Both the position numbers and the translations under genes were made by a program. This document shows positions 3,598-63,805 of a DNA stretch of 64,000 bases, in pieces (the stretch's first letter is position 1; the number at the start of each line of letters is the position of its first letter). The stretch covers positions 98,225 to 162,224 of the forward strand of contig CALWZG010000022.1 in the NCBI GenBank assembly GCA_944385965.1. The letters run 5' to 3'. The DNA is from an uncultured Anaerotruncus sp. (lineage in GTDB: Bacteria > Bacillota > Clostridia > Oscillospirales > Ruminococcaceae). The notes beneath the pieces are model-generated. The model was not told where the DNA came from and ran no database searches. It saw nothing but the letters and a program-made list of their open reading frames with translations.

Positions 3598-3709
3598 AAC
3601 AGATAAATCTCCTTGTGACAATCAGTAAATCTAGTCTGTGAGATTTGGCACAGGATATTCTGGAAGGATGCCGGGTAAACTAACCCTATTTGAAAGGAAG
3701 GGAAACGCT

Positions 3710-5272
3710 GTGAAATTTTTAAAAGACCTGAAAAATAAGCTGTTGTCCCCCACAGCGGCTTACCGTCCCCCTCAGGGACAAAAGGGACTGGAAGAAAAAA
3801 AATTACAGCCGGATTTACAAACTAAGCTGGAACAGATCCGTCAGCTGTTTGGAAATTCAGGGGATTTGGTCATCCATGAGCTGGAGGCGGGCGGAGTTCC
3901 TTGCGCGGTACTGATTTGTGAGGGTGCCATTGATACCTCCACCTTCTCGGAAATTTTCGCCCGTCCTTTGACCCAGGTGCGTCTGGAGGAACAGACCCCT
4001 AACGCTTTGCTTTGCTGGGTACGCCGACACTCTCTCATGGCTCCGGACCAGAAGGAGTTCAAGACCTATGCCGAACTGTTTCGGTTTATGATGTCCGGTT
4101 TTGTGGTGCTGCTGATTGACAGTGTACCCTATGGGTTCGCCTTTGGAATCCAGGGAGCCATCGGGCGGGGGGTGGATGAGCCTCAGGGGGAAATCAATGT
4201 CCGAGGCTCACGGGAAGGCTTTATTGAACGGCTCCGGCCCAATCTGGCGCTGGTAAGACGCAGGATGAAATCCCCGGATATGGTATTTGAGTATTTGCAG
4301 GCGGGAAGCAAAAGCCGCACCGACGTGGCCCTTGTTTACATGAAGGACCGGGTTTCCTTAAAACTGCTCAATGAGGTACGTTCCCGACTGGAAGACCTGC
4401 CCTTGGATGTGGTGTTGGAAAGCGGATATTTGCAGCCTTTTCTGGATACAAAACCTTTGTCTATCTTTTCGGGGGTAGGTTTTACCGAACGGCCGGACAC
4501 CCTTTGCGCCAAGGTAGCGGAGGGTCGGGTGGGGATTTTGGTGGATGGAACTCCTTATGCTTTGGTGGTCCCTTACCTTTTTAATGAGCATTTTCAAAGC
4601 TTTGACGATTATGCCCACAGACCCTATTACGCCACCTTCATTCGATGGCTCAAATATGCAGCGTTTCTGTTTTCGGTGCTGCTGCCAGGGGCTTACGTGG
4701 GTTTGGGGACCTTTCACCCAGAGCTCCTGCCGCCCAATCTCCTGCTGAAACTGGTTTCCAGCGAGGAGGCCACCCCCTTCCCCTTGATGTTTGAGGCCCT
4801 GCTGATTTTCTTTATTTATGAAATCATGCGGGAAGCTGGACTGCGAATGCCTAAATCGGTGGGACATGCGGTCAGCATTGTAGGTGCGCTGGTCATTGGA
4901 GACGCAGCGGTCACCGCAGGCTTGGTGGGTTCTCCCATGGTGATTATTGTGGCCATCACTGCCATCAGTTCCTTTGTGGTGCCAAGCCTTTATGAGCCGG
5001 TAGCGCTGCTGCGGTTCGCGTTTATCTTGATAGGAGGAACCCTGGGCTTGTATGGGGTGGTTTTGGGGTTCTGCGTGGTGGCGGCCAATCTCTGTGCGTT
5101 GAATCCTTTGGGGATTCCAGTGGCCAGCCCCACGGGAGGCTCTCTCTATACCATGCGGGACACCATTTTCCGTTGGGGATGGAGAACCTTGGGACAGGAG
5201 GACCTGTATGTCCAAGACTTGACCGGCAGCGATTTAAAGGAGGAGAAAACGGATGGAAACCAAACAACGTAA
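3710..5272 (+). CDS. gerAA: Spore germination protein, GerA (A-subunit) family
   Basis: A 520-residue A subunit of a nutrient germinant receptor in the spore inner membrane. The N-terminal half is soluble and carries family motifs such as SVPYGFAFGIQGAIGRGVDEP and RGSREGFIERLRPNLALVRRR. The C-terminal half has several membrane helices from about residue 330 (YAAFLFSVLLPGAYVGL). An ATG gives a longer frame from 3638, but GTG 3710 has AAGGAAGGG nine bases upstream and yields the normal length. First gene of a tricistronic gerA-gerB-gerC operon, overlapping gerB by 20 bases. The germinant cannot be predicted. Confidence 0.93.
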   Translation: MKFLKDLKNKLLSPTAAYRPPQGQKGLEEKKLQPDLQTKLEQIRQLFGNSGDLVIHELEAGGVPCAVLICEGAIDTSTFSEIFARPLTQVRLEEQTPNALLCWVRRHSLMAPDQKEFKTYAELFRFMMSGFVVLLIDSVPYGFAFGIQGAIGRGVDEPQGEINVRGSREGFIERLRPNLALVRRRMKSPDMVFEYLQAGSKSRTDVALVYMKDRVSLKLLNEVRSRLEDLPLDVVLESGYLQPFLDTKPLSIFSGVGFTERPDTLCAKVAEGRVGILVDGTPYALVVPYLFNEHFQSFDDYAHRPYYATFIRWLKYAAFLFSVLLPGAYVGLGTFHPELLPPNLLLKLVSSEEATPFPLMFEALLIFFIYEIMREAGLRMPKSVGHAVSIVGALVIGDAAVTAGLVGSPMVIIVAITAISSFVVPSLYEPVALLRFAFILIGGTLGLYGVVLGFCVVAANLCALNPLGIPVASPTGGSLYTMRDTIFRWGWRTLGQEDLYVQDLTGSDLKEEKTDGNQTT

Positions 5273-6338
5273 TATCTCAGGCTTCCAGCTGGGGGCGCTG
5301 TTATTTATCAGCCGCTATTTTTCCTATATGACCTATCTCCCGCAAAATCGGACTACCCTGACAGGGCCAACCGCTTTAATGTCTGTGCTGGTGGCTGTTG
5401 CAATCCTCACAGTGGCTTTTCAGGGGTATAGAATCATGTGTAAGCGATGTGGACCTGATTTGTTTCAGGCGGCTCACCGGGTCTCGCCAGCATTTGAAAA
5501 ACTGGTGGCCGCTCTGCTGGGAATTTATGCGCTGCTTATCAGTGCTTCCTCTATGGCCCAATTCGATTTTTTTATGAGCAGCACCATTTATCAAAATATC
5601 CGTTCCTGGATTTTTGTGATACCCCTGGGGGCGGCGGTGGCTTATGCTGCGGCATTGGGACTGGAGTCCTTCGCCCGCATGGCAGTACCAGCTGCTTTTC
5701 TGGTTTTGGTTACGGTTTTGTTATTGACAGGGGCGTTGGCCAGAGAGGTGCAGCCAGCTTATTTTTATAGCCCTTTTTATGATGGATGGGGTGAAATCTG
5801 GGAAGGGGCGATTATGCTGGTGGCCCATATGGCGGAATTCTTGCCTTTGATTCTTTTATTTCCCCGCACAGGGACCCAGTCTCCCAATAAGGTTTTTACG
5901 GGATGGCTGGGATGCAGTATGGTGGTGCGGGAGTGGATGATTCTGCTGGTGATTGCCACCCTGGGGGATTATGCGGCTTTGAGAGACTTTCCATTATATG
6001 GGGCGGCTTCCCTGGCGGAAGTAGGGCCTTTTGGAGACTTGGATACCGCTCATATTGTGATATGGGTCATTGTGGGCTTTTTGCGTATCAGTGTGTATCT
6101 GTATTGTGGGGGCATCTGCCTGCGCAGGATTTTTCCTAAAGGGAAGCTGGGGCTGTTTTCCAGTTTGCTGGCAGCCGCGTCGGTGGGATTTTCCCTGTGG
6201 GCCTTCGCTTATCCCCAGTTAAGCGGGGGAGTGGATTCCACCAAAATCGCAGGTGGGTTTTTCCTGGGGGGAACGGTGCTGCTGCCGTTTATTATCGCCA
6301 TGCTGCCAAAAGCCCGACAGAAGGAGGGAGCTGTGTGA
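5253..6338 (+). CDS. gerAB: Spore germination permease, GerB (B-subunit) family
   Basis: A 361-residue, ten-helix protein of the GerAB/amino acid permease superfamily. It opens with the typical ISGFQLGALLFISRYFSYM segment. In characterised receivers the B subunit binds the germinant. AAGGAGGAG lies just ahead of the ATG at 5253, inside the end of gerA. The stop overlaps the GTG of gerC (GTGA), as is common in ger operons. Confidence 0.93.
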   Translation: METKQRNISGFQLGALLFISRYFSYMTYLPQNRTTLTGPTALMSVLVAVAILTVAFQGYRIMCKRCGPDLFQAAHRVSPAFEKLVAALLGIYALLISASSMAQFDFFMSSTIYQNIRSWIFVIPLGAAVAYAAALGLESFARMAVPAAFLVLVTVLLLTGALAREVQPAYFYSPFYDGWGEIWEGAIMLVAHMAEFLPLILLFPRTGTQSPNKVFTGWLGCSMVVREWMILLVIATLGDYAALRDFPLYGAASLAEVGPFGDLDTAHIVIWVIVGFLRISVYLYCGGICLRRIFPKGKLGLFSSLLAAASVGFSLWAFAYPQLSGGVDSTKIAGGFFLGGTVLLPFIIAMLPKARQKEGAV

Positions 6339-7549
6339 AAAAACTGATTGCTGTGCTGCTTTTGATTTTAAATTTAACCGGCTGTATGCCCAACGCCAAG
6401 CTGGGGGATCGAGATATGGTGGAAGGTATGGCGATTGATAAAAGCCCTAATGGCACCTACAAAATCACCCTGCAAATTTCCCAGCCGGAGGAGGAGGAAA
6501 AACCGGCCCAACCGGTTATTTTGCAGCAGGAAGGGCGCAGCGTGACCGAAGCCATGGCGGAAAGCAGTCTGGCCCAAGGGCGCCAGATGTTTCTGGGGAA
6601 CTGTACTTTATTAGCCATCGGGGAAGGATTGGCTGGGGAGGACTTACGCTATCTGCTGAACTTTTTTGACACCAATCACCGAGTATCTCCAAATATGACT
6701 GTGCTTCTTACAAAAGGAGAAGCGTCAGAGCTGCTCTGGCTGCGCAAGGAAATCCCTACCCTGTCGGCGGAACATGTGGCGGAAAGTGCCCAGGCGGGGC
6801 GAAAGGGAGGCTGGATGGGATACAGCCGCCTGTCAGATTTGACCTTGGACCTTAAAAACCAGAATTGCGCGTTGCTTCCCATTGTGACACTGGAGAAACC
6901 TGAGGAAGTCTCGTCCCAGGAGGAAGGGGCTGGGGAAGAAAACAGTTCCCAAAGCAGCGGTTCCTCCAGTCAGGACAGCGGTTCCAGTTCTCAGAGCAGC
7001 AGTCAGGCGTCAGAGGAAGAAAAGGTACCCCCAAAACTTCATTATATTGGAATGGGTATTTTGCAGGATGCCCAGGTGAAAGCGGTTGGGGATGCATCCG
7101 CTTCCAAAGGTTGGGCCTGGCTGACCAATTCCAAGCAGGACCGGCAGATGCATTTAGAGGACCAGACGTTAGGAAAGGTCAGCGTTTTGGCGTACAGTCA
7201 TAAAGTAAAGCTGATACCCGAACAAAAAGGGGATTTAATAGTTTTAAAAATTCAGCTGAAAGTACGTTCCAATCTGGTGGAATGGGACTTGGGCTCAGGA
7301 GAGAAGCCTGACAAAGCGGATCTGGAAACCATCAAACTGTTGGAAACCCGACAGATTGAGGAGGAGATAGGAGCGTTTATAAACGCTACCTTGCGCAAAG
7401 GATATGATCCTTTGGGGGTGGGGCTTTTGATACGGCAAAAATTTCCAGAGCTTTATCGGGCTTGGGAACCAAATTGGGGAAAAAATCTTCCAGAGATTGG
7501 ATATGACCTTCAGGTTTCCTGTGAGCTGGACCAGGATTATATCCAATAA
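6335..7549 (+). CDS. gerAC: Ger(x)C family spore germination lipoprotein
   Basis: A 404-residue C subunit of the germinant receptor. The GTG at 6335 (AAGGAGGGAG upstream) gives a lipoprotein signal ending LNLTGC with Cys17 as lipidation site. Family motifs follow: GDRDMVEGMAIDKSPNG and the central FFDTNHRVSPNMTVLLTKG. A longer in-frame ATG at 6197 lies inside gerB and would lose the signal peptide. Unusual is an acidic, Ser-rich insertion at about residues 193-230 (segments such as NSSQSSGSSSQDSGSSSQSS), splitting the N-terminal domain from the C-terminal half. The C-terminal part keeps IEEEIGAFINATLRKGYDPLG-like family sequence. Confidence 0.92.
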   Translation: MKKLIAVLLLILNLTGCMPNAKLGDRDMVEGMAIDKSPNGTYKITLQISQPEEEEKPAQPVILQQEGRSVTEAMAESSLAQGRQMFLGNCTLLAIGEGLAGEDLRYLLNFFDTNHRVSPNMTVLLTKGEASELLWLRKEIPTLSAEHVAESAQAGRKGGWMGYSRLSDLTLDLKNQNCALLPIVTLEKPEEVSSQEEGAGEENSSQSSGSSSQDSGSSSQSSSQASEEEKVPPKLHYIGMGILQDAQVKAVGDASASKGWAWLTNSKQDRQMHLEDQTLGKVSVLAYSHKVKLIPEQKGDLIVLKIQLKVRSNLVEWDLGSGEKPDKADLETIKLLETRQIEEEIGAFINATLRKGYDPLGVGLLIRQKFPELYRAWEPNWGKNLPEIGYDLQVSCELDQDYIQ

Positions 7550-7698: not shown

Positions 7699-8916
7699 AT
7701 GAGAAAATATTACAAGAGGTTCGCCAGCGTCTTATGCCTGGCCATCTCAGCCATACAGGCGTTGGCTCTTTATACACAGGCCACCTTGCCAGACCATTAT
7801 TATGTGGCCGCGGGAGAAAACTTTTCCATACCTGGCACAATCCCTATCACCACCCAAAGCAGCGCAGGCAGCTTGCCAGCGGAAGCCTATTCCGCCGCTG
7901 GAAACAGTTATAATGTGGATTTGAAGCTTCCCGGCGGGGTGGAGGTCAAGCAGGTTCAGGTCCAGGTGGTGGACCGGGAAATGGTGGTTCCTGGAGGCAA
8001 CCCATTTGGCATCAAGATGTTTACCGAAGGGGTCATGGTGGTGGGTATGAGCGACATCGCCAGCCAGGGCAAAACCTCCAATCCCGCCAAAGAGGCAGGG
8101 ATAAAGGTGGGGGATATTATCCTCTCCATGAATGGAAGCCAAGTACTCACCAATGAGGACGTGGGGGACATTGTTTCCCACAGCAGCGGAAAGCCGGTGA
8201 AGGTCCAGCTGGAACGATCTGGAAAACCCATGACAGTTCAGGTGGAGCCTGTCCGGGATGATTCTGGTGTGTATCGAGCTGGCATCTGGGTGCGGGACAG
8301 CTCAGCGGGCATCGGTACAATGACCTACTACGACCCAGCAACAGGAGTGTTCGCCGGTTTGGGCCACGCCATCTGTGATGTGGACACAGGGGATATTATG
8401 CCCTTACATTCTGGAGAGATTGTGGGGGTAAAAATCACAGGAATTCAAAAGGGCGCCAATGGGGCCCCTGGTGAGCTGCGTGGCAGCTTTTCAGGACAGA
8501 AAACAGGGGAACTGCTCATCAATTCTCAGGTAGGTGTTTTTGGAATCGGACAAATTCCGGATTTATCCAGCCAGCCGGTGCCTCTGGCCATGAAACATGA
8601 GGTTTTAGAGGGACCCGCCTCGATTCGTTGCACCTTACAGGATGGAGAAACACGGGAATACCAAATTGAAATCGAAAAGGTGAGTATTTCAGAAAATAAT
8701 CCCACAAAAAATATGGTAATTCGGGTCACTGACCCAGCCCTTTTGGAAAAAACTGGGGGAATTGTGCAGGGTATGAGTGGGAGCCCAATCCTGCAAAATG
8801 GACGTTTGGTAGGCGCAGTAACCCACGTTTTTGTAAATGATCCGACGAGGGGATACGGTATTTTTGTCGAAAATATGGAGAGGATGTCGAAAAACGTTAT
8901 AGATACAAGTTTTTAA
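7699..8916 (+). CDS. spoIVB: SpoIVB serine peptidase (S55)
   Basis: A 405-residue signalling protease secreted from the forespore; in Bacillus it cleaves SpoIVFA and so triggers pro-sigma-K processing. An N-terminal membrane anchor (about residues 8-28) is followed by a PDZ domain at about 105-185 (KEAGIKVGDIILSMNGSQV) and the S55 peptidase domain. Probable catalytic residues are His223 (GLGHAICD) and Ser362 (GMSGSPI). The ATG has AGGGAGGAA nine bases upstream. It sits directly before spo0A, the order conserved in most spore formers. Its last codons contain the Spo0A boxes described separately. Confidence 0.95.
   Translation: MRKYYKRFASVLCLAISAIQALALYTQATLPDHYYVAAGENFSIPGTIPITTQSSAGSLPAEAYSAAGNSYNVDLKLPGGVEVKQVQVQVVDREMVVPGGNPFGIKMFTEGVMVVGMSDIASQGKTSNPAKEAGIKVGDIILSMNGSQVLTNEDVGDIVSHSSGKPVKVQLERSGKPMTVQVEPVRDDSGVYRAGIWVRDSSAGIGTMTYYDPATGVFAGLGHAICDVDTGDIMPLHSGEIVGVKITGIQKGANGAPGELRGSFSGQKTGELLINSQVGVFGIGQIPDLSSQPVPLAMKHEVLEGPASIRCTLQDGETREYQIEIEKVSISENNPTKNMVIRVTDPALLEKTGGIVQGMSGSPILQNGRLVGAVTHVFVNDPTRGYGIFVENMERMSKNVIDTSF
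8862..8891 (+). promoter_or_regulatory. Two tandem Spo0A boxes (0A boxes) upstream of spo0A
   Basis: TGTCGAA, the core of the Spo0A binding site, occurs at 8865-8871 (within TTTTGTCGAAA) and again at 8885-8891. The two copies have the same orientation and are exactly 20 bases apart, so they lie on one face of the helix. They overlap the 3' end of spoIVB, about 150-170 bases before the spo0A start. Known Spo0A dimers bind tandem boxes, so autoregulation is the natural reading. Confidence 0.75.
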
Positions 8917-9038: not shown

Positions 9039-9815
9039 ATGAAAGAAACAATAAAAGTGTTGCTTGTAGAGGGAGGCGGAGATTATTGCGGTAAATGCTC
9101 CGCCCTGCTCAAAAGCTGCGGATGTGAAGTGGTGATCGCTCCCAGAGATGGCCTGTTGGTAGAGCAGCTTATCCATGAGACCCATCCCAAAGTAGCGCTT
9201 CTGGATGCGTTCATGCCCAAGCTGGACGCTTTAGGAGTGATGAACAGCGTCCGGGAACGTCATATGCCTGATCCGCCGCAGTTTATGGTGGCGGCCACCT
9301 TCAGCAATCCTATTTTGGAGAGCGAGTTGGTGGAAGCTGGAGCTTGTTATTTCTTTTTGATGCCTTTTGAGCCTGAAATCATGGCGAAAAGAATTCTGAC
9401 CATGGCAGGAATGGGTCAGCCTCTCACCAGTGCGGAAGGCGGGAGGAACCATCCTCGTCCTGATTTGGAGCTTATGGTCACTGATATTATCCATCAAATT
9501 GGGGTTCCAGCCCATATCAAAGGGTATCATTATGTTCGGGAATCTATTATGCTGGCGGTAAAAACACCGGACATCATCAATTCTGTTACAAAAGAACTCT
9601 ATCCAACCGTAGCCAAAAAGTTTTCAACTACCCCTTCCAGGGTAGAAAGAGCCATCCGGCATGCTATTGAGGTGGCCTGGGACAGAGGGGATGTAGATAC
9701 CCTTAACAGCTATTTTGGCTATACCATTCATAACGGCCGCGGCAAGCCCACAAATTCAGAATTTGTGGCAATGATTGCGGATAAACTCAGACTTCAGTTG
9801 AAAGATGCGGGTTAA
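9039..9815 (+). CDS. spo0A: Spo0A, master regulator of sporulation, with a degenerate receiver domain
   Basis: A 258-residue response regulator that commits the cell to sporulation. The C-terminal DNA-binding domain (about 143-258) is almost canonical, including the recognition helix SRVERAIRHAIEVAW (200-214) and FGYT...KPTNSEF. In the receiver the phosphoacceptor is kept as Asp56 (VALLDAFMP), but the usual acidic pair DD near residues 10-11 is Glu11-Gly12, the active-site Thr region reads VAATFS in place of MLTAFG, and the invariant Lys of FxLKPF is Met108 (FFLMPF). Loss of Lys and of one Asp normally disables Mg2+/phosphate chemistry. SD GGAGGAG precedes the ATG. Terminator follows directly. 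Confidence 0.95.
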   Translation: MKETIKVLLVEGGGDYCGKCSALLKSCGCEVVIAPRDGLLVEQLIHETHPKVALLDAFMPKLDALGVMNSVRERHMPDPPQFMVAATFSNPILESELVEAGACYFFLMPFEPEIMAKRILTMAGMGQPLTSAEGGRNHPRPDLELMVTDIIHQIGVPAHIKGYHYVRESIMLAVKTPDIINSVTKELYPTVAKKFSTTPSRVERAIRHAIEVAWDRGDVDTLNSYFGYTIHNGRGKPTNSEFVAMIADKLRLQLKDAG

Positions 9816-9846: not shown

Positions 9847-9892
9847 TTTTGCGTTTCGTTATCGATTGGGAATTGAGAAAGGCGGGATTGGT

Positions 9893-10072
9893 ATGGGAAA
9901 GGTCAATTGTGAGAACTGTTGCCATTACATTTATGATGAGGAGATGGACTGTTATACTTGTCTGATGAATTTGGACCAGGATGAAATGGCACGGTTTATC
10001 CAGGGAGCTTTTGATGATTGCCCTTATTTTCGTCTGGATGACGAATATGGATTGGTACGCAAGCAGAATTAA
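9893..10072 (+). CDS. Small Cys-rich protein, DUF6472-like
   Basis: A 59-residue acidic protein with four clustered cysteines (CENCCHY and MDCYTCLMNLDQDEM) and a fifth in DDCPYF, suggesting a small metal-binding fold. The end DDEYGLVRKQN is characteristic of a small family I know as DUF6472 in Clostridia. An in-frame ATG at 9866 exists, but AAAGGCGGG precedes the ATG at 9893. No function is known. It sits alone between spo0A and icd. Confidence 0.75.
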   Translation: MGKVNCENCCHYIYDEEMDCYTCLMNLDQDEMARFIQGAFDDCPYFRLDDEYGLVRKQN

Positions 10073-61264: not shown

Positions 61265-62551
61265 ATGAAACGGATTTGGCATCGTGTGGCGGCGGTGATT
61301 TTGTTTATTATTCTAATCACCGCCGCCATCCCTTATTTATGGTTTAACCATATCTCAAGACAGGGGCTTTACCAGGATACTAAAAAGAAGATTCAAAATA
61401 GTATCACCCAGATGGCGGATTATTTGGTAGCCAGTGGAGATTCTTTGGAAGTTTTAGAAAAAATTTATGATGACCCATCTTTGCAGGTTCGCATATTGGA
61501 GTCTTTGAAAACGCTGGAATTGGATGAATCCCAAGAACAACGCCTGAAAAAGGAAGGCTCTCTGTTCATTTTAAAAAGGGATGCGGCATCCCTAGAATAT
61601 TGTGTGGTGGTAATTGATTACCATGGACAATATTTAATGTGGAAATTTAATATTTCATCAACCTTTGGACCGATTCATCAAGCGGCTGTGATGTCTTTGA
61701 TTACCTCACTTGTTTTGGGTTCAATTATTGCGGTATTTGCCAGCTTTCGATTGAGCAAACCTATTCAGGAGCTGGACGCGGCGACCCAAAAGGTGGCTGC
61801 TGGAGATTTTACCATTTGTCTGCCGGAACGGGGGAAGGATGAGGTAGCTTCCTTAGTGCGCAGCTTTAATATTATGATTAAGGAATTGAGAAGCGTGGAG
61901 CTGCTGCGCAGTGATTTTGTGTCGGATATTTCCCATGAGTTCAAAATCCCTTTGACTGCCATCGAGGGATACGCCAAACTTTTGGAGCAGGAGTCTGACC
62001 CCCAGGAGCGAGCAGAATATATTCAAATTATTAACCAAGAGGCCCATCGCCTTTCCACTCTGGCTGAGAATATTCTCTTTCTCAACCGCATTGAAAAAGG
62101 GAATATCTCAGCGAAAAAAACACTGGTGCGTGTGGATGAGCAAATTCGCTGGGCCTTGACCCTATATGAGCAAAAGTGGAGCCAAAAAGAGATTGCTCTG
62201 GAGTTGGAGCTGGAGGAAGTATCCTTTTTAGGTTATGAAGCTATGCTTTCCCAAGTCTGGACCAATCTGATTGATAACGCCATTAAATTTTCCTCGGAAA
62301 AAGGCCGCATTTTTCTTTGCCTGAGCAGACAACAGGAAGGATTTCGGTTTACCATCAGAGATGAAGGATGTGGGATTCCTCCGGAAAAGCAGTCCCATAT
62401 TTTTGATAAGTTCTACCAGGCCGACCAATCCAGAGGCGGGGAAGGCAATGGACTGGGGCTGGCGATTGTGAAAAAGCTGGTGGAACTGCATCATGGAAAA
62501 ATTCAAGTGGAGAGTTCGTCGGAAGGCTCTACATTTACAGTTATTATGTAA
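61265..62551 (+). CDS. Sensor histidine kinase
   Basis: 428 residues. Membrane helix 1 (about 7-27), a ~110-residue outside sensor region, helix 2 (about 139-160), HAMP (to ~215), dimerisation/phosphoacceptor domain with His224 (SDISHEFKIPLTAIEGYAKL) and HATPase_c: N box LIDNAIKFSS, G1 DEGCGIP, F KFYQAD, G2 GGEGNGLGLAIVKKL. ATG 61265 is preceded by GGAAGAGAG; the longer frame from 61103 lies within the regulator gene. Signal unknown, probably envelope or drug stress. Confidence 0.94.
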   Translation: MKRIWHRVAAVILFIILITAAIPYLWFNHISRQGLYQDTKKKIQNSITQMADYLVASGDSLEVLEKIYDDPSLQVRILESLKTLELDESQEQRLKKEGSLFILKRDAASLEYCVVVIDYHGQYLMWKFNISSTFGPIHQAAVMSLITSLVLGSIIAVFASFRLSKPIQELDAATQKVAAGDFTICLPERGKDEVASLVRSFNIMIKELRSVELLRSDFVSDISHEFKIPLTAIEGYAKLLEQESDPQERAEYIQIINQEAHRLSTLAENILFLNRIEKGNISAKKTLVRVDEQIRWALTLYEQKWSQKEIALELELEEVSFLGYEAMLSQVWTNLIDNAIKFSSEKGRIFLCLSRQQEGFRFTIRDEGCGIPPEKQSHIFDKFYQADQSRGGEGNGLGLAIVKKLVELHHGKIQVESSSEGSTFTVIM

Positions 62552-62698
62552 TATCGGCGTGCTATGGAACAGGAGGGGCAAATTTCAAAGTTTATAGGAA
62601 GAAAATAAAAGAAATCTCATATTTGGATGTAAAAATCAAAGAAAAAATCCGTTAAATTTATATAAAGAAGAATTTTGTGGACTTACGAGAATTTACGC

Positions 62699-62860
62699 TT
62701 GCAATTTGATGTTTTTGTGGTACAATAAAATAGATAAAATTCTGAATGTTTTTAGGGGGTGTAGTTGGTGAATCCTGACCCAGGAAGTTATCCCAGTAAA
62801 AAGAAAATAGGGGCAGGGGCTACACCTTTATGATAGGCTACCCCTGCTGAAAGGGGTTTT
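62699..62860 (+). promoter_or_regulatory. corA promoter and riboswitch-like leader
   Basis: TTGCAA (62699-62704), 16 bases, TACAAT (62721-62726). The ~130-base leader can form GGTGTAG (62758-62764) with CTACACC (62820-62826), enclosing the hairpin TCCTG-ACC-CAGGA (62773-62785). Alternatively GCAGGGG (62813-62819) pairs with CCCCTGC (62841-62847), and that CCCC can instead pair with the ribosome site AAAGGGG (62850-62856). Three mutually exclusive or nested helices ending at the ribosome site are the layout of a translational riboswitch. I do not recognise the class; it is not a clear M-box. The 62552-62863 gap holds nothing else. Confidence 0.6.
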
Positions 62861-62863
62861 ACA

Positions 62864-63805
62864 ATGCTGCGTTTTTACAAGACCGTAGACAACCGCGTCC
62901 TGCGGATTGACAGACCGGAGGCGGGATGCTGGATTTCGGTGGTGGCCCCCACCGAGGCGGAGGTAGCGTATCTGACCAAAGATTTGGGCGTTTTGCCGGA
63001 TTTTGTACGGGCCGCTTTGGATGAGGAGGAAAGCTCCCGTATTGAGAGCGATGAGGGACAGACCCTGGTGATTGTGGACTATCCCTCAGCGGAAGAACAG
63101 GCGGATGAGAATAAAACCATCCTGTATACCACCCTTCCTATGGGCATTATCATCACTGAGGAGTATGTGCTGACCGTCTGCCTGGAGGAAAATCTCACCA
63201 TCTGCGATTTGGCGGAAGGCCGGGTGCGAGGGCTGCAAACCTCCATGAAAACCAGATTCCTGCTGATGACCCTGCTGCGAATTGCCCAGCGCTTTTTGAT
63301 TTACCTGAAACAAATTGATAAGATTTCCTCTTCCACCGAGCAAAGACTCCATCAGTCCATGAAAAATAAAGAGCTGATTCAGCTTCTGGGCTTGGAAAAG
63401 TCGCTGGTGTTCTTCTCCACATCTCTGAAATCTGACGAGATTACCCTGGAAAAGATTCTCCGGGGACGTATCATCAAGCTATACGAGGAAGATGAGGATT
63501 TGTTGGAAGATGTGCTCATCGAGGTCAAACAGGCCATTGAGATGTGTAATATCTATTCCAGCATCCTGTCGGGAACTATGGACGCCTTCGCGTCAGTAAT
63601 TTCCAATAACCTAAACATTGTGATGAAGGTGCTGACCTGTATTACAATCGTGATGGCGATTCCCAATATGGTGTTCAGCTTTTATGGCATGAATACCTGG
63701 AATGGGTTCCTTCCTATGGCTACCTGGTGGTTCCCTCTGGTGATTTCCGCTATCCTGTGCCTGATTGTCTCCCTGATTTTGATGAAAAAGGATATGTTCC
63801 ATTAA
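62864..63805 (+). CDS. corA: CorA family divalent cation (Mg2+/Co2+) transporter
   Basis: 313 residues. Large cytoplasmic N-terminal domain, then two C-terminal membrane helices with the signature YGMN (274-277) between them and a Lys-rich tail KKDMF. FVRAALDEEESSRIESDEG and FLIYLKQIDKISSSTEQRL are family-like. Forms a pentameric channel for Mg2+ or related ions. AAAGGGG precedes the ATG and may be masked by the leader fold. Confidence 0.92.
   Translation: MLRFYKTVDNRVLRIDRPEAGCWISVVAPTEAEVAYLTKDLGVLPDFVRAALDEEESSRIESDEGQTLVIVDYPSAEEQADENKTILYTTLPMGIIITEEYVLTVCLEENLTICDLAEGRVRGLQTSMKTRFLLMTLLRIAQRFLIYLKQIDKISSSTEQRLHQSMKNKELIQLLGLEKSLVFFSTSLKSDEITLEKILRGRIIKLYEEDEDLLEDVLIEVKQAIEMCNIYSSILSGTMDAFASVISNNLNIVMKVLTCITIVMAIPNMVFSFYGMNTWNGFLPMATWWFPLVISAILCLIVSLILMKKDMFH

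Follow-up and report, generated by a model that had tools for sequence, protein, structure and literature searches.

In endospore formers, phosphorylation of Spo0A is the common entry to sporulation, and the regulation of sporulation is uncharacterised in dozens of families, as stated in a 2024 review of clostridial sporulation kinases (PMC11210211). Canonical Spo0A (TIGR02875) has a receiver, represented by structures 1qmp, 1dz3 and 5wq0, and a DNA-binding domain, represented by 1lq1 and 1fc3. Receiver folds that lack the catalytic set are found in the atypical response regulators ChxR, HP1043, BldM and WhiI (PMC12632262), of which BldM and WhiI are developmental regulators in Streptomyces and in this sense comparable to Spo0A. 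None of the four is a Spo0A, and Spo0A does not occur in that 2025 review of pseudo-receivers. On the kinase side, DivL of Caulobacter (4q20) has Tyr at the site of the phosphorylated His and binds phosphorylated DivK (PMC4211667). Titles and abstracts of the open literature yielded no description of degenerate Spo0A receivers; subscription papers were mostly uncovered by this search and an earlier notice is possible.

The Spo0A considered here is encoded in the window, a stretch of 64,000 nucleotides from an uncultured Anaerotruncus sp. It resembles canonical Spo0A in its domain order, its DNA-binding domain, the predicted fold of its receiver, its spoIVB neighbour and the 0A-box-like sites upstream. 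Unlike canonical Spo0A, it is without the second acidic residue, the Thr/Ser and the Lys of the receiver, and its activation by phosphorylation is doubtful. It shares with the atypical response regulators a receiver fold that has lost the catalytic set, but in Spo0A the change comes in grades across the order, and most members of the genus retain Asp56. As Asp56 is retained in the window, the protein is not an aspartate-less receiver (ALR).

The Spo0A receiver and its active site

The open reading frame at 9039..9815 (+) encodes a protein of 258 amino acids that matches Spo0A (NCBIfam TIGR02875) over residues 5-255 with 250.6 bits, above the equivalog cut-off of 200. The initial annotation described a near-canonical DNA-binding domain, and the Spo0A_C domain (9477..9788, +) is indeed intact, matching PF08769 with 155.9 bits across all positions of the profile (1-104 of 104) and structures 1lq1 and 1fc3. 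The receiver (9054..9398, +) scores 28.4 bits against Pfam Response_reg (PF00072) in a single-protein search and 30.3 bits in a whole-genome search, for a cut-off of 30.2. Structure prediction with AlphaFold2 gives an intact (beta-alpha)5 fold for the receiver, and its structural matches include the Spo0A receivers 1qmp and 5wq0.

Within this fold the active site is that of a pseudo-receiver. Compared with the canonical set of an acidic pair, Asp, Thr/Ser and Lys, the sequence and alignment read Glu-Gly, Asp, Ala and Met. Glu11 (codon GAG, 9069-9071) and Gly12 (GGA, 9072-9074) replace the acidic pair (9069..9074, +), Ala86 (GCC, 9294..9296, +) replaces Thr/Ser, and Met108 (ATG, 9360..9362, +) replaces Lys, while the phosphorylation site Asp56 (GAT, 9204..9206, +) is kept. 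Glu at the first acidic position is a conservative change, shared by 8 of the genome's 18 canonical receivers, so the residues lost are three of five: the second acidic residue, Thr/Ser and Lys. Codon reading and alignment thus bear out the loss of three of five active-site features, with Asp56 retained, that had been proposed from the DNA sequence. The other 19 receivers of this genome served as a control, and 18 of them carry the complete set. Set against 0 canonical Spo0As in the 11 genomes of the genus, this is more than chance would give. The one exception is a further degenerate receiver (L124, G000:C55:80810-81121), which has Ser, Asp, Asn, Val and Lys at these positions and falls under the Pfam cut-off.

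The initial annotation would have been undermined by a second canonical spo0A or by sequencing errors at the active-site codons. The 2.34-Mb assembly (95.8% complete) contains a single Spo0A_C match, that of the window, and a second canonical spo0A is absent from it. A protein of 98% identity (P0001) has the same five residues, and Lys is missing in all 11 genomes of the genus, which together rule out sequencing error as the cause of the degenerate pocket. Extra Spo0A_C matches occur in four genus genomes; their open frames of 86-184 amino acids are too short for a receiver together with Spo0A_C and are therefore not second canonical Spo0As. These short Spo0A_C-like proteins, without room for a receiver, are found in G005, G006, G008 and G009 (L135-L144), with up to four per genome.

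Decay of spo0A into a pseudogene was also considered, by estimating dN/dS in six pairs; receiver dS was not estimable in three of these. The receiver gave values of 0.022 (L133/L134) and 0.035 (L129/L131) in close pairs, and 0.087 in L128/L133, a pair whose DNA-binding part was left out owing to a faulty boundary. Purifying selection acts on the gene in these comparisons of close relatives, and receiver dN/dS of 0.02-0.04 in two close pairs, together with the intact predicted fold, rules out decay. The degenerate Spo0A receiver in the window is a confirmed observation.

Gene neighbourhood and spore genes

Three germination genes and spoIVB precede spo0A on the same strand. The first is a gerA-type spore germination gene (3638..5272, +; PF03323, 506.3 bits), followed by a spore germination permease gene (5253..6338, +; PF03845, 51.3 bits) and a gerAC-type spore germination gene (6197..7549, +; PF25198, 97.3 bits; PF05504, 60.5 bits), whose true start is probably further in. 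The sporulation signalling protease gene spoIVB (7699..8916, +) scores 403.2 bits against TIGR02860, for a cut-off of 305, and carries a Peptidase_S55 match. Directly 3' of spo0A lies a gene for a small, cysteine-rich DUF6472 protein (9866-10072). Elsewhere in the genomes of the genus, spoIVA exceeds its curated cut-off in 11 of 11 and is split in four (G005, G007, G009, G010) into a main and a C-terminal part, with the break near residues 399-409; in G010 there is just a short end piece. In G005 about 5 kb of a single contig separates the two parts; this could be a skin-like insertion removed during sporulation.

The region upstream of spo0A was scanned for TGNCGAA, which we take to be the 0A-box motif. 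Two sites reading TGTCGAA are present in the window, at 8865..8871 (+) and 20 bp further on at 8885..8891 (+), both within the 3' end of spoIVB. Within 300 bp upstream of spo0A, the genus has 13 such sites, whereas a pair of equally long control windows has 1 and 2; the order has 102, compared with 38 and 22. In the order, at least one upstream site is present for 57 of 92 degenerate and 20 of 35 canonical Spo0As, so that the lineages are alike in this respect. Part of the enrichment may be a coding signal, because 12 of the 13 genus sites, and both in the window, lie inside an open frame extending from upstream (spoIVB in the window, and probably spoIVB in the genus at large). The sites would fit a Spo0A that continues to bind its own boxes and may have its amount set by feedback.

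Conservation in the genus, order and class

The genus set comprises 11 genomes, including that of the window, each with one full-length Spo0A. Lys is replaced in every one of them (8 Met, 2 Leu, 1 Gln). Asp56 persists in 8 and is Glu in 3. Canonical receivers number 0 of 11, counting L132 (G007), where the acidic pair reads LVENG and is probably misaligned by one residue and Lys is absent either way. A similar pattern is seen in the 46 nearest proteins, which have lost Lys in all cases and the second acidic residue in 45 of the 45 that are readable, and have kept Asp56 in 45 of 46. Loss of Thr/Ser is rare, because position 86 is Ser in 41 of these proteins and Ala in 3.

The genus belongs to an order that we take to be Oscillospirales. 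For the order, 109 of the 181 genomes outside that of the window with a Spo0A_C match were compared, the genus left out; the 30 best-scoring were chosen first, the remainder being mostly single representatives of their genera, and each genome contributed one Spo0A. For the class, 69 of 93 matching genomes outside the order were compared, a set without the weakest matches. Of the 109 order Spo0As, 79 are non-canonical and 30 carry the full set of acidic pair, Asp, Ser/Thr and Lys. Of the 69 in the class outside the order, 61 are canonical and 8 are not. One truncated row in each set (L204, L341) counts as non-canonical. A strict Asp-Asp pair is present in 16 of the 109 order Spo0As. Lys is lost in 20 and Asp56 in 33 of these, whereas in the class outside the order Lys is kept in 68 and Asp56 in 65 of 69. 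Among 20 further order genomes beyond the 109, picked partly for the kinase comparison below, 6 have a canonical Spo0A.

A FastTree phylogeny of 189 rows, built without the five catalytic columns, indicates at least 8 changes for Lys, at least 22 for Asp56 and at least 22 for the second acidic position, with 66 of its 186 inner branches weak. The counts leave out rows gapped at the five sites, 80 named loci and near-copies above 92% identity. The genus of the window is near the extreme of an order-wide trend of receiver degeneration.

Clostridium sporosphaeroides DSM 1294 is listed as endospore-forming in Table 2 of PMC4148971. Its Spo0A (L016) has Asn, Asp, Asp, Ser and Ile at the five sites, and Lys is kept in 0 of the 120 nearest matches listed for it. 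Judged from these residues, this strain appears to be the best link from a Lys-less Spo0A to a sporulating organism.

Kinase-like candidate partners

The initial annotation suggested a search for orphan kinases. The genome has 23 HATPase_c matches, and the coordinates place a response regulator no more than about 4 kb from 14 of them; of the nine others, two were examined, both kinase-like, and seven were judged by size only. The two are an apparently orphan kinase with an intact HisKA domain (on contig C36) and a protein without a HisKA match (on contig C3). The C3 gene lies outside the window (G000:C3, about 62411-63577, - strand; L091:1387-2553), is divergent from gapdh, and encodes a protein with a HATPase_c match of 74.8 bits. 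This protein can be termed a pseudo-histidine kinase, as a kinase fold is predicted, the ATP-binding boxes are kept and the phosphorylated His is replaced. Its predicted fold combines a helical DHp-like part with an ATPase domain and matches HK853, DivL and KinB.

Orthologs are present in nine of ten other genus genomes, the exception being G003, which is 78% complete, and in other families. The gene adjoins gapdh divergently in all 15 loci compared. The H-box of the family is recognisable with its His replaced (FGNQYRAPLT, FDSRYRMELS), where ordinary kinases in the same alignment read SHELRTPL or SHDLRTP; for some highly diverged members the alignment of the H-box is uncertain. Across 18 rows there is no variation in the Asn of the N-box or in the G1 and G2 glycines. 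The predicted DHp-CA fold, the replaced His and the kept ATP-binding boxes are shared with DivL (PMC4211667), but the replacements are Asn, Ser, Lys, Asp and others, unlike the Tyr of DivL. A survey of gapdh loci placed a gene of this type in many of the order's families. Beyond the order, the first kinase profile matched 0 of 30 loci; a wider second profile found none in the five class gapdh loci that it covered, and very diverged members could be missed. The distance from this gene to spoIVA is about 7 kb in G002 (C5), about 15 kb in G001 (C1), about 17 kb in G004 (C7) and 57 kb in G005.

A link between the His of this protein and the state of Spo0A was examined across genomes. Family f18 is the only one in which His is kept at the H-box, in all six members found, and Spo0A is canonical in the five whose Spo0A is known. 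A canonical Spo0A accompanies a His-less protein in 3 of 38 genomes (G107, G190, G017), and the G190 locus shows no gapdh. The association of His with canonical Spo0A gives a Fisher p of 6e-5, with the f18 rows forming one clade; phylogenetically independent pairs amount to one, which is not significant. Three genomes with a strongly degenerate Spo0A (G033, G178, G142) have no such gene beside gapdh. Among congeners without Spo0A, presence or absence of the gene speaks for the link in two (G104, G036) and against it in two (G094, G156), the others being uninformative. The gapdh-divergent protein is thus best described as a candidate Spo0A partner, no more. A broader proposal, that across the order the kinase has lost its His and Spo0A its pocket, and that the resulting pseudo-kinase and pseudo-receiver would signal by binding alone, is unlikely on present comparisons.

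Possible modes of activation

The initial annotation asked whether the degeneration is shared by relatives, in which case sporulation would be switched without a normal phosphorelay. Relatives do share it, in all 11 genomes of the genus and, in milder form, in 79 of 109 Spo0As of the order, and from this spread an unusual activation of Spo0A is likely. The further step to a bypassed phosphorelay holds less well: the retention of Asp56 in the genus, and in 45 of the 46 nearest proteins, is the strongest argument against a complete loss of phosphorylation. The order-wide trend and the His-less kinase-like family extend what had been a single odd protein. The safest reading is that the pseudo-receiver Spo0A is a working transcription factor whose input has moved away from the standard chemistry. 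We favour, as probable rather than secure, the more specific reading that it controls sporulation without normal metal-dependent Asp phosphorylation, through its amount and non-covalent contacts of the receiver. The receiver would still fold and would contact itself or a partner, for which the His-less orphan kinase-like protein divergent from gapdh is a candidate; the activity of Spo0A would be set by its own amount, with positive feedback through 0A boxes, and these contacts would act together with that amount.

Retention of Asp56 suits a Spo0A that is still phosphorylated there at a slower rate, with a dedicated kinase or an altered pocket compensating for the missing residues. Phosphorylation can survive substitutions at DD, T or K, and a pseudo-receiver that keeps Asp may work like an ordinary receiver, only more weakly (PMC12632262 section 20); the apparently orphan HisKA kinase on C36 also speaks for this reading. 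We consider slow phosphorylation rather unlikely, given that the nearest proteins have all lost Lys together with the second acidic residue, with Thr/Ser also lost in this species, and that Asp56 itself is Glu in three genus genomes and is lost in 33 of 109 Spo0As elsewhere in the order. The two conserved cysteines in helix 1, of which Cys20 is present in all 11 genus rows and Cys17 in 8, could instead make the receiver a thiol or metal switch, and redox-controlled pseudo-receivers do exist (PMC12632262 section 20). Cys17 is also shared by 29 of the 69 class Spo0As, most of them canonical, and Cys20 by 36 of the 129 order rows; being this common, the cysteines are not tied to degeneration, the thiol switch is rejected as a feature specific to degenerate Spo0As, and such a mechanism is very improbable.

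It is also conceivable that control of sporulation has been lost, Spo0A being kept as a constitutive regulator of other genes as spore genes disappear. The absence of any Spo0A_C match in 15 of 197 order genomes, the broad change of the receiver across the order and the split spoIVA in four genus genomes point in this direction. Such a loss is nonetheless improbable: spoIVA reaches its cut-off throughout the genus, spoIVB and the three germination genes adjoin spo0A, the gene is under purifying selection, and a listed endospore former has a Lys-less Spo0A.

Implications for sporulation

Spores have been shown for Ruminococcus bromii (PMC5814915), and surveys have taken a spo0A gene to indicate sporulation (PMC8340488; PMC11536998). 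Surveys of this kind miss changes in the input domain of Spo0A. Natural variants in the order range by degrees from canonical to strongly degenerate, and Anaerotruncus colihominis and Clostridium sporosphaeroides are among its cultured members. A clade that keeps its spore genes while its switch is without catalytic residues would break the rule of a common entry to sporulation, and would make it testable how the programme starts without ordinary phosphotransfer.
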